A stretch of DNA of 64,000 nucleotides from contig JADHSL010000005.1 in assembly GCA_016776925.1 (NCBI GenBank), forward strand, positions 35,158-99,157, read 5' to 3'. The stretch is from Pirellulales bacterium. GTDB lineage: Bacteria > Planctomycetota > Planctomycetia > Pirellulales > UBA1268. This document shows, in pieces, positions 56,862 to 61,677 of the stretch; within the stretch, counting starts at the first letter, position 1, and the number at the start of each line of letters is the position of its first letter. The notes below the pieces were generated by a model. The model saw only the letters and a program-made list of their open reading frames with translations. It was not told where the DNA came from and ran no database searches. The position numbers and the translations under genes are program-made.

Positions 56862-56934
56862 GCCCTCGTAGCTCAGGGGATAGAGCACCGCTTTCCTAAA
56901 GCGGGAGTCGCAGGTTCGAATCCTGCCGGGGGTA
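56862..56934 (+). tRNA. tRNA-Arg (anticodon CCT)
   Basis: Acceptor GCCCTCG/CGGGGGT, anticodon arm CCGCT-TTCCTAA-AGCGG, T-arm GCAGG-TTCGAAT-CCTGC folded by hand. Confidence 0.93.
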
Positions 56935-57179
56935 CTACCTTCTCCAGACGTATAGCGTTTTTTTGCGATTTGTATCCGCTGGATACAGATATGGATACAG
57001 AACCGCTCAACTGACTATCCCAATCCCCGCTCAAGATGGGGTCTAAAAGGGCCAAGTTTCAGCACAGATTTCGGGCCAGTTTCAGGTAATGCAAAGGGAA
57101 AAATATGGCTATTAATTTGGGCCTATAAATATAGGGTTAATATCTATGCAAAATATCTATGCAAATTTGCATTTAAATC

Positions 57180-57821: not shown

Positions 57822-57964
57822 TTGGAGATGGTTGGTGGTGGCTGGGACATTTAAAACTAAGTAGATGATTCAATACATCATCGGGCCTAGTGTTCGATTC
57901 AAACCAGTATCATCTATTTTTTGTCAGGCCACCGCTGACCGGATCCAAATTTGAGGATGAAATT

Positions 57965-58615
57965 ATGAGTGATTTGGAAAAGAAAATTGAAGCAATAGAC
58001 GACATGACGCGAGAAATTGCTGCAATCCAACACAACAATTACTTCATTCTTGAACAATACCGACTCGTTGAAGAACAAATAAACAAAGTTCGCACCAAAT
58101 ATGAAAAGAAATTCAGTGGAAAATTAGCCAGTGACGACCTGCTAAACAAAAAAATAAAGCAATATCGGGAGGAATTAGAACTAAGAAATGAGGTTCTTCC
58201 TCAAAGTAAAAAGAAATTGGTACTAAGAATTACAGGCCAATTAAAAGTACAGTTCTTAAAGGCAATGCTTCAGGACTTCGCCGCCAATGATATTGAGACT
58301 GTGACGCTAGACGACATGGTTAATTGGTGCAGCAGGAAAAGTAGAAGTAAAGGAGCGGCAAAGATCTTGAATGAATTGGGTATTGGGGATATTTCCATAC
58401 CATCAACACAGTTCTTTCAAACCACTATCAATGGAAACAATATTCGTCTGTACCCAACAGAAGCATATGTAACCAAGAAACCACCAGAACCAGCACACTT
58501 TATTGTCAAGAAATGGAAGACATGGTTTGACAAAGAAGAAGACAGAATGCTCGCTGGTAAACAAAACAAAGAAGACAAGACAACGGCTCGAAATCGTAAG
58601 GTGCATTCCAAATGA
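57965..58615 (+). CDS. Hypothetical coiled-coil element protein
   Basis: MSDLEKKIEAIDDMTREIAAIQHNN...; internal Met preferred over 57890; no family recognised. Confidence 0.6.
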   Translation: MSDLEKKIEAIDDMTREIAAIQHNNYFILEQYRLVEEQINKVRTKYEKKFSGKLASDDLLNKKIKQYREELELRNEVLPQSKKKLVLRITGQLKVQFLKAMLQDFAANDIETVTLDDMVNWCSRKSRSKGAAKILNELGIGDISIPSTQFFQTTINGNNIRLYPTEAYVTKKPPEPAHFIVKKWKTWFDKEEDRMLAGKQNKEDKTTARNRKVHSK

Positions 58616-58890
58616 CGAAGGCCGAAGCAAAACAAAAAGTGAAACAGGAAGGTGGCTGGGAGATGGTTAAAGTCTTCGACACCTACCACCTAATGGCTTG
58701 GTACAACTGGAGCGAAGGTTACGTCAAAAAGATGAGGAATGAAGGAATGCCGACTTGGAAAGATGGACGCCGAAACAGGTATGACCAACAGGAAGTACAG
58801 GCTTGGCTCAACACTCATAATTTTTTTGTGCCTTCCGGACAGTCTCTAGACTATTGTGATAATAAATATGTAAGGGTAACTATACTATGA
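58612..58890 (+). CDS. Excisionase-like small HTH DNA-binding protein
   Basis: DTYHLMAWYNWSEGYVKKMRNEGMPTWKDGRRNRYDQQEVQAWL resembles MerR/HTH_17 excisionases; directly upstream of integrase, 4-nt overlaps both sides. Confidence 0.65.
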   Translation: MTKAEAKQKVKQEGGWEMVKVFDTYHLMAWYNWSEGYVKKMRNEGMPTWKDGRRNRYDQQEVQAWLNTHNFFVPSGQSLDYCDNKYVRVTIL

Positions 58891-60173
58891 AATCCCGACC
58901 ATGTTCTAAGAACCCAAAGTTGTGGACGTTTGAGATTGATTTGGGAACGGACCACAGACGTAAGCGGTTCTCCATTCGCAAAAGATTCTTGAACTCGAAA
59001 TTGCAAAGAGCCTGTGAAGCAATGTTTGAGGAGATAGAAGAACACTATCTAAGCAAAGAACCACTAAGCAAAGATAGCAAGGAAACTTTGCTGACAATTA
59101 CAAACCATGGTGAAGATTGGGAACACAGACTTCAAGCACTTGGTGCTATTGCCGAAATCAAACAAAGAATATCCGACTATACAGTTGACCAAGCATGGAA
59201 CTCCTACACGGCTCGAAGAGGTGTGGAAGAAACATGGGCCGACGGAACATACAAAAACTGGAGGAACTGTTGGAAAAGAATACAGGCTGGTGGCTTCGAC
59301 CCAAATAAAAAACTGAGTGAAGTAACCGGAATATATTTGTTGGAATGTCTTGAGGCTCTTCGGCTGACCTATAGATATGAAACACTCGACAAAGACTGCA
59401 AGAACTTTGTGCAGATGTTCACATGGTACGCCAACAAAGGACGATTCGAAGATAATGAACTAGAAGGAATTACCTTCAACGAGAAGTTTGTAAAAGGTGA
59501 ATCGATCCAAGGTGGCAATCCAAAAGAGACAGAAGAAATCACAGAGGAAATGTTCTGGGATGCCTTCGAGAAGATCACTCTTGTTCCTCTTCACTACGCT
59601 CGAACAACTTATGACAGACAACCATCACTAGAACACCAAACATTGTTTGCATATTGGTTCTGGCTTGGTGCGAGAAAGATGGATCCCGTGGGTGATAAAT
59701 GGGCGGACATCGACTGGGAAAAAAATACTGTCAATAGATTCTGTGGCAAAAAGAAAAGGAAACTAAAAGACCCATGCCCAATTCCTTGGCAGTTTTTGCC
59801 GACACTCACCAAGTGGCGGGACGAAGTAATCGAAAGAAATGGTGAGGCAAAGGGAAGAATTTTCCCTTACCTATCGGAGGTAGATGGTTCTGCTGTTTAC
59901 AACTTCTACTTCGACCGACTCAAAGTAAGAACTACTCACAACGGCAAAGAATGTTGGATAGATCCTTGGAAGGGTTTAATCCAATCACTTCGAGTGACTC
60001 GCTCAAAGAGACTTCGAACGGATCTTCCAAATGGTCGCTATCTAGAAAGTATATGGATCGGACACGCTCAAGATGTTGCCGACGCCAACTATGACTTCAC
60101 GAACTCCGAAGACTTCCGTTTGATAACAGAATCAAAGGCTGGACGAATAACTAGGGAAAGTGGTGCAGCATGA
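58887..60173 (+). CDS. Tyrosine recombinase (phage-type integrase)
   Basis: WFWLGARKMDPVGDKWADIDWEKNTV (Arg I box) and SLRVTRSKRLRTDLPNGRYLESIWIGHAQDVADANYDFTNSEDF (box II with WIGH and Tyr). Confidence 0.85.
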   Translation: MKSRPCSKNPKLWTFEIDLGTDHRRKRFSIRKRFLNSKLQRACEAMFEEIEEHYLSKEPLSKDSKETLLTITNHGEDWEHRLQALGAIAEIKQRISDYTVDQAWNSYTARRGVEETWADGTYKNWRNCWKRIQAGGFDPNKKLSEVTGIYLLECLEALRLTYRYETLDKDCKNFVQMFTWYANKGRFEDNELEGITFNEKFVKGESIQGGNPKETEEITEEMFWDAFEKITLVPLHYARTTYDRQPSLEHQTLFAYWFWLGARKMDPVGDKWADIDWEKNTVNRFCGKKKRKLKDPCPIPWQFLPTLTKWRDEVIERNGEAKGRIFPYLSEVDGSAVYNFYFDRLKVRTTHNGKECWIDPWKGLIQSLRVTRSKRLRTDLPNGRYLESIWIGHAQDVADANYDFTNSEDFRLITESKAGRITRESGAA

Positions 60174-60238: not shown

Positions 60239-60418
60239 ATGTTTTTTGATGACTTTTTGGATGACGTACCGGAACTAGAAGCGGTGATGCCTGGCATCGT
60301 ATTTGGAACAGTAGATGTTGTCTGTGATGGTTGTGGAGAAATCCAAACCCATAGAGAAAATCCAGACGGATCCAATCAATACTGGTGTTCGAAATGTGAA
60401 ACAGTAACGGAGATATAG
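60239..60418 (+). CDS. Small CxxC...CxxC zinc-ribbon protein (59 aa)
   Basis: MFFDDFLDDVPELEAVMPGIVFGTVDVVCDGCGEIQTHRENPDGSNQYWCSKCETVTEI*, GAGGTG upstream; below the track's length cut. Confidence 0.6.
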   Translation: MFFDDFLDDVPELEAVMPGIVFGTVDVVCDGCGEIQTHRENPDGSNQYWCSKCETVTEI

Positions 60419-60420
60419 GG

Positions 60421-61677
60421 ATGATAGTTCTTCTTCCTGAATCAATATGGCTTTCACCATTTATGAATGACCTACAGGCTTTGAAAATTGTTTCGATGGT
60501 TGCTTGTCAACAAATAAAGCAAGTACACAAGTGGCGAAGCAAAAACGAAATCAAAGGAAGACCAAGAACTCAAGCCGAAGTTTTAAATGAGTGGGCAAAT
60601 ATATGGTCTAAGAATTTAAAAAAGGTAACGCCGACATACAAAACAAAAATTGATGAGTTGGTAGACAAAAACATACTGGAGAGAAACCCAATCTACTCCA
60701 ACTTCAAAGGAAAGAAATTCCCTAAATCATTCCGGTTCCACGAAAACCTTAGTACTGACAATCTGTTCCTCATGCAAATTAAACAACGCAAGAAGCCGAG
60801 GAGACACAGAAGAAAGACAGGAGCATTTTCTAGTTATCACGAAGCGGCCATGAGTTGGATCGACTGTTTTGATTTACCAGAAAAGTTTTTGCAGGAGTAT
60901 GAAACTATATGTGAAGAATCAACATGGCCAGATTATGAAAGACTACAGATAGTAGAACTAAACAATAAAAGTTGGTGGCATACCGTTGATAAATTTGGCC
61001 GCTATCACACACCATTAACCAACATGAATAAGAAACTGAGAATGTTTCTATGTTGCAAAGGTTCAGGGATCGTTGGTTTTGATTTTGCCAACTTTCAACC
61101 AGCACTATTGGAACATTTCCCAACCAATAGCATTGCAATACAAATACCTGACAGAGAAAGAGAGCATTACAAAACACTCTGCAAGACAGGAACCATCTAC
61201 CAATACATGCTGGAGCAAACTTCCCACAGAACCAAAGCGAAAGCAAAGGAAGAATTTTTGGCCATGCTTAACAAACCAAATAACAGCATGAAAAAAATGG
61301 AAATGTGGACAGCATTTGACCGCAATTTTCCACACTATTCGAAAGTTATACAGGAAATAAAAGTAGGTAGTGGAAAAGATCCACACAAACAAATGGCAAG
61401 TTTTTTAATGAGCAAAGAAAGCCAAATAATTTTTGGACATGTCGTTAAAAATTTCCAAGAAATGACCTCGGACTCCATACCATTTTTCACAATACATGAT
61501 GCCGTTTACACAATTAAAAACTCCAAGAAATTACTAAAGCAATCAATGGAGAAAGCAATCACCAACTGTAAAATTTCTACCTTCTGCAAGGGGGAAGAGG
61601 GTTCTACTACCTGTTATCCATCCCAACCCACAAATGTGGCAATGAAACCAGAGCAAAATTTATGGCTCACTTTCTAG
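60421..61677 (+). CDS. Divergent family-A-polymerase-like protein (putative replication/repair polymerase of element)
   Basis: GRYHTPLTNMNKKLRMFLCCKGSGIVGFDFANFQPALL (motif-A-like), RTKAKAKEEFLAMLNKP (motif-B-like), FDRNFPHYSKVIQEIK, LMSKESQII, FFTIHDAVYT (HD motif-C-like). Confidence 0.55.
   Translation: MIVLLPESIWLSPFMNDLQALKIVSMVACQQIKQVHKWRSKNEIKGRPRTQAEVLNEWANIWSKNLKKVTPTYKTKIDELVDKNILERNPIYSNFKGKKFPKSFRFHENLSTDNLFLMQIKQRKKPRRHRRKTGAFSSYHEAAMSWIDCFDLPEKFLQEYETICEESTWPDYERLQIVELNNKSWWHTVDKFGRYHTPLTNMNKKLRMFLCCKGSGIVGFDFANFQPALLEHFPTNSIAIQIPDREREHYKTLCKTGTIYQYMLEQTSHRTKAKAKEEFLAMLNKPNNSMKKMEMWTAFDRNFPHYSKVIQEIKVGSGKDPHKQMASFLMSKESQIIFGHVVKNFQEMTSDSIPFFTIHDAVYTIKNSKKLLKQSMEKAITNCKISTFCKGEEGSTTCYPSQPTNVAMKPEQNLWLTF

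Follow-up and report, generated by a model that had tools for sequence, protein, structure and literature searches.

Why would a small integrative element carry, next to its integrase, a gene that resembles a DNA polymerase? The question is raised by a 418-aa protein encoded towards the end of the window, as we call the whole stretch of 64,000 nucleotides of planctomycete DNA analyzed here. A first-pass annotation, made from the sequence alone, had described it as an element-encoded, divergent family-A-polymerase-like protein. The features of the locus are collected in Table 1.

Table 1. Features of the tRNA-Arg element and of its polymerase gene (window coordinates)
Feature	Position	Strand	Basis
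tRNA-Arg (CCT), attachment site; element begins at its 3' end (left border)	56862..56935	+	ARAGORN, Rfam tRNA
Element ORF, 213 aa	57180..57821	+	No family match; relative beside degraded copy in L034
Element ORF, 241 aa, first gene of the integrase-polymerase run	57890..58615	+	Conserved in L033
Small helix-turn-helix protein, excisionase-like	58612..58890	+	phrog_66 excisionase/regulator E=0.009, HTH_17 E=0.06; conserved in L033
Tyrosine recombinase (integrase)	58887..60173	+	phrog_1 integrase E=1.2e-10
59-aa zinc-ribbon-like ORF (CxxC...CxxC)	60239..60418	+	Translation; stop 2 bp before polymerase ATG
Divergent PolA-like polymerase	60421-61677	+	ORF, ATG start, 418 aa
N-terminal domain, residues 1-119, winged-helix-like	60421..60777	+	AlphaFold residues 1-135, Foldseek
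Palm and fingers, residues 186-393	60976..61599	+	AlphaFold, Foldseek, profile alignment
D190xxGRYHxxxT200 block, equivalent of PolA TGRxSS / RNAP DxxGRxY	60988..61020	+	Conservation, 38 sequences
Motif A GFD221FANFQ226P, Gln at steric-gate position	61075..61101	+	D221, Q226 38/38
Motif B / O-helix K272xxxK276xxxLxxxN284	61234..61275	+	K276 38/38
Motif C FFTIHD360A	61483..61503	+	D360 38/38, H359 37/38

Predicted fold and active site

Searches with the single polymerase sequence (PDB by sequence, Pfam, PHROGs and viral proteins) returned nothing usable or weak matches. A Pfam match to DUF5663 (E=6e-4, below the cut-off) was set aside because it covers 39 residues at the O-helix and the other homologues are without it. 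PADLOC, which recognizes defence systems, gave no match for the polymerase, and its interpretation as part of such a system was therefore dropped.

An AlphaFold2 model of the protein was built with a 38-sequence alignment (pLDDT 86, pTM 0.82). Past residue 186 the elements of the model follow one another as in a PolA palm into which fingers are inserted: the palm strand 215-222 ends with D221 of motif A, the helices between residues 225 and 315 include the O-helix (272-284), E333 sits in the long helix 321-348, and D360 of motif C lies in the hairpin 355-365, which is followed by helix 366-382 and strand 389-393. The best 50 PDB matches listed by Foldseek, with E values between 2e-6 and 2e-4, are without exception DNA polymerases of family A, among them Klenow, T7 DNA polymerase, the apicoplast polymerase and Pol theta. 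The two analyses agree with the proposal of a divergent family-A-like protein, giving PolA palm and fingers, and the right-hand palm whose prediction had been suggested as a check is present. Judging from the fold match, D221 and D360 would come close together.

Conservation was evaluated on 38 homologues from planctomycetes, Bacteroidota and huge phages. R194, D221, Q226, Y260, K276, E333 and D360 are invariant (38/38), and in the GRYH block R194 is accompanied by H196 (37/38), T200 (36/38) and D190 (34/38). All the PolA-like blocks named in the first-pass annotation are present, in the order given, and conserved. One correction concerns the O-helix: the block is there, with its invariant lysine, but the position of its arginine, four residues before K276, is that of K272 in the window protein (R in 31 of the 38 homologues) and not that of the R which starts RTKAKAK. 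Aligned with hhalign, the family profile is collinear with PolA over 152 columns with a score of 44.2, against a best score of 28.8 in 120 column shuffles used as a control.

The protein shares with family-A polymerases (PF00476; Klenow, T7 gp5) the palm/fingers topology, the motif A Asp, the O-helix Lys, the His-Asp of motif C and also the F..YP-like and Q-helix blocks, in order. It differs from them in its length of 418 aa, in having no exonuclease domain and no recognizable canonical thumb, and in the Pfam result, since DNA_pol_A (PF00476) found no match, at the thresholds applied, in the window protein or in any of the 38 homologues; with the same model the PolA of the host reaches 498 bits. 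We consider the fold and the active site to be well supported, and the sequence suggests a catalytically competent, template-dependent polymerase of family-A fold.

Concerning the N-terminal domain, residues 1-135 were folded alone (pLDDT 85.5); the model starts with helices, after which come one strand, a pair of helices and several strands. Foldseek gave no match below E=0.001 for this domain; its best matches are weak throughout (E >= 0.067), and most of them are winged-helix DNA-binding proteins such as MarR, the plasmid Rep-DNA complex 5kbj and ORC; in one homologue there is a weak match to a Crp-type HTH. From the model, the domain is likely a winged helix.

Residues at the sugar-gate positions

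E710 and Y766 are described as a universally conserved pair of family A, joined by a hydrogen bond in the closed enzyme (PMC4882331), and E710 is the residue that blocks ribonucleotides (PMC9324360). The window family departs from family A at both positions. Gln (Q226) takes the place of E710 in 38/38 homologues, and at the Y766 position (284) we counted Phe in 31 sequences, Tyr in 4 and Asn in 3, these last being the three sequences of the window's own clade. The E883 position, in motif C, is also changed, to Ser or Ala. Tt72, an active phage family-A DNA polymerase, has a motif-C Ser too, in an HDS motif (PMC9324360), therefore this Ser does not by itself point to an RNA polymerase. DNA-specific synthesis should nonetheless not be assumed for the window protein, since Gln and Asn occupy the positions of E710 and Y766; what we infer about the sugar choice of the family comes from these residues.

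Homologues and relationship with divPolA2

A bacterial family with the layout 'IDIxNSQP...FTIHDS' had been named in the first-pass annotation; this family exists and was recovered by our search. The profile found 27 loci in bacterial genomes, mostly of Bacteroidota. Planctomycete homologues have about 40% identity with the window protein and those of huge phages 20-30%. The phage collection yielded six matching records, metagenomic genomes 595-735 kb in length, and the plasmid collection contains a single carrier, one Hymenobacter plasmid. Of 294 Planctomycetota genomes sampled, only 2 possess a homologue, a rare and patchy distribution, as expected for a mobile gene. A decayed copy, with the frame split by a stop and the N-terminal part missing, was observed near a tRNA-Val (L034:7938-8681).

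The type is not wholly unknown. In 2024 Yutin et al. described divPolA2, a protein of barbaviruses and other phages with an active-looking palm, without a known thumb and with an N-terminal domain of unknown kind; it occurs besides a regular polymerase and is possibly a repair enzyme or an RNA polymerase (PMC11348598). Our literature search found divPolA2 named only in that paper and its preprint. The model protein AUR84708 corresponds to phrog_4756 (E=1.8e-91). Comparing the window family with divPolA2 by hhalign gave a probability of 97.3% and a score of 93.5 (shuffle maximum 30.1); the window protein alone matches phrog_4756 with E=0.0028, and its best-scoring homologue matches phrog_4756 with E=3.4e-10. 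A tree of the palm, in which branches are long and the root is unknown, separates divPolA2 (100/99) and the window family (95/94) as two clades. On these sequence comparisons the window family is a sister clade of divPolA2. The phrog_4756 profile, which is centred on divPolA2, had no match in 199 Planctomycetota genomes.

Like divPolA2, the window family is compact (about 400-435 aa), joins a PolA palm without known thumb or exonuclease to an N-terminal domain of its own, and is found in addition to a regular polymerase; the two N-terminal domains gave no sequence alignment with each other. Several divPolA2 members share with the window's clade a Pro at D+6 of motif A and the Asn at the Y766 position, which in the hhalign alignment is frequent in divPolA2. 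The gate position, on the contrary, is an invariant Gln in the window family and E, H or W in divPolA2, and motif C is mostly HDS in the former versus FDE, YDE, HDE or HDS in the latter. The setting differs too: the window family occurs in huge phages and in integrative elements of two phyla, Bacteroidota and Planctomycetota, and the divPolA2 records that we found are gammaproteobacterial phages of 80-140 kb. The setting of the window family is new, and through it divPolA2, so far described from phages, gains a sister clade in culturable Bacteroidota, open to genetic tests. We also observed that in Vibrio phage ICP1 (records MW794156.1 and others) divPolA2 is an unannotated hypothetical protein, and that phrog_4756 matches more than one place in some phage genomes.

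Among viral proteins, the 'DNA replication protein' of Zamilon is a weak structural match (E 1.6e-4). It belongs with transposon and virophage polymerases, which we take to be PolA-like polymerases of mobile elements. With 778 aa, however, it is much larger than the window protein, and a close sequence match to the latter was not found.

The element in the tRNA-Arg gene

That the polymerase is element-encoded can be followed on the left side of the element. The GC content falls from about 0.49 to 0.38 across the region, and the chromosome of a relative of the same genus (L033) matches the window with 87.5% identity as far as 56936, at the 3' end of the tRNA, and then diverges. The right edge is past the end of the contig, where the window also ends, and the element is seen from its left border only. 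A second copy of the attachment site was not found, the tRNA itself being the sole exact copy in the genome (right border beyond the contig end); the tRNA is also the only RNA element found. In a further relative (G007) this tRNA is occupied by the element seen in the window, with 96% identity over the 1.3 kb available and 91% in the flank.

The helix-turn-helix gene overlaps both the 241-aa ORF and the integrase gene, by 4 bp each. The zinc-ribbon-like ORF, of 59 aa, is below the 60-aa cut-off of the ORF list and was hence missed there. Because of this gene spacing, the polymerase is probably co-transcribed with the integrase. Besides the polymerase, no recognizable replication gene was found in the part of the element that lies in the window, the right end being beyond the contig.

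Past the tRNA, the chromosome of L033 continues with a different element, in which the 241-aa protein, the helix-turn-helix protein, the integrase and the polymerase each have a relative. Its integrase is a close relative of the window integrase, and both score with the integrases found beside other homologues. Two planctomycetes of one genus have different, distantly related integrase-polymerase elements in the same tRNA-Arg gene (L033:3350-7213 and window:56862-61677). The two sequences also share an 82-bp stretch with 85% identity (window:62985-63066 and L033:7276-7356); in the window it spans the end of a GNAT-like ORF, of which L033 has just the tail. As far as can be told, this stretch is not an attachment site.

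Neighbourhoods of the homologues

The pairing with an integrase noticed in the window recurs across two phyla. An integrase is encoded near the polymerase gene in 15 of 28 loci and by the next gene in about ten (the integrase call in L046 is weak, E=6e-4), and a tRNA is present within the retrieved stretch in 12 of 27. The order tRNA-integrase-polymerase within a few kb was found in L038, L040, L046 and L058. When the Pfam domains of 106 neighbour proteins were counted, integrase domains, HTH_17, DUF3871 and AAA_24 were at the top. In three loci (L041, L044 and L047) genes for AAA_24 and DUF3871 proteins adjoin the polymerase gene upstream, in divergent orientation, and this pair may be a recombination or replication partner of the element. 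In another (L048) a DUF3987 gene is directly upstream; DUF3987 proteins are helicase/primase-associated in mobile elements. Overall, the neighbours of the polymerase do not form a uniform replication module.

In the huge phage LR756511 (595 kb) the polymerase gene overlaps by 4 bp the gene of another compact PolA, which has 428 aa and matches PF00476 with E=1e-20. The same overlapping pair is seen in two phages (L074:5921-8367, LR756511.1, and L019:5557-8006), with a window-family protein of 387 aa; the first proteins are 59% identical between the two. PolB is encoded elsewhere in the genome in four further huge-phage records. Since the huge phages checked possess a second PolA or a PolB, the window-family protein is an extra polymerase there. 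What emerges is a palm-type polymerase clade outside Pfam, repeatedly linked with integrases in two bacterial phyla and present also in huge phages, where it accompanies a regular DNA polymerase, sometimes as its direct neighbour.

Possible roles of the polymerase

The reading that we prefer, with a probability of about one half, is that the element encodes a polymerase of family-A fold for the synthesis of its own DNA or primers. In an active element, integrase and polymerase would be produced jointly. The N-terminal winged-helix-like domain of the polymerase would probably dock it on a site of the element DNA or replace the missing thumb, palm and fingers would then extend the strand, and the enzyme would most likely act on the excised element before reintegration, in origin or priming synthesis or in second-strand synthesis. 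If the protein is active, integrative elements of this kind carry their own polymerase, and it offers a natural family-A-like site with a replaced sugar-gate pair, useful for studying the divergence of DNA and RNA polymerases. A more specific version, which we consider quite improbable, is a polymerase that is anchored on DNA, makes primers and is relaxed in its choice of sugar: the winged helix would sit on the element origin, and the Gln/Asn or Gln/Phe pocket would start or extend strands with both NTPs and dNTPs. Were it true, a small integrative element would need no classical primase for priming and copying its own DNA. No convincing origin-like repeats were seen 5' of the polymerase gene.

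A live rival, although in our opinion less likely, is that the protein is a compact single-subunit RNA polymerase, with the winged helix reading a promoter and the palm transcribing the element genes. With T7-type enzymes (PF00940) its family shares the palm fold, the HDS of motif C and the DxxGRx[YH] block, whose DxxGRxH has the same spacing as DxxGRxY of T7 RNA polymerase; the invariant Y260 could match, by eye, Tyr571 of T7, one of the 38 homologues matches Pfam RNA_pol (E=0.0011, below its cut-off), and Yutin et al. raised the same option for divPolA2 (PMC11348598). However, the similarity to the profile of T7-type/phage RNA polymerases is little, 30 columns with a score of 26.8 (shuffles up to 22.6) compared with the 44.2 obtained for PolA, and RNA polymerases are absent among the best 50 PDB matches listed. 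In addition, the gate residue is Gln instead of Gly, no large N-terminal promoter domain of the T7 type is seen in the window protein, and the HDS motif occurs in Tt72 as well.

A second live rival, about as likely as the first, is that the enzyme takes no part in replicating the element and instead works in repair or gap filling, on element or host DNA. Repair is common among PolA enzymes, and it was suggested for divPolA2 because its phages have another replicative polymerase (PMC11348598), as do the huge phages with a window-family protein. Against it, the window family combines a DNA-binding-like N-terminal domain with the lack of a nuclease domain, and the host already has its PolA. Moreover, the mechanism of tyrosine recombinases leaves no gaps that need filling. 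We give very little credit, finally, to the idea that the protein has lost catalysis and is retained to regulate the element by binding DNA. Such a role would fit the integrase linkage, the winged-helix-like domain and the two non-canonical sugar-gate positions, but the catalytic Asp pair, the O-helix Lys and the Arg of the GR motif are invariant in 38 homologues from two bacterial phyla and phages, and this makes a dead enzyme unlikely.
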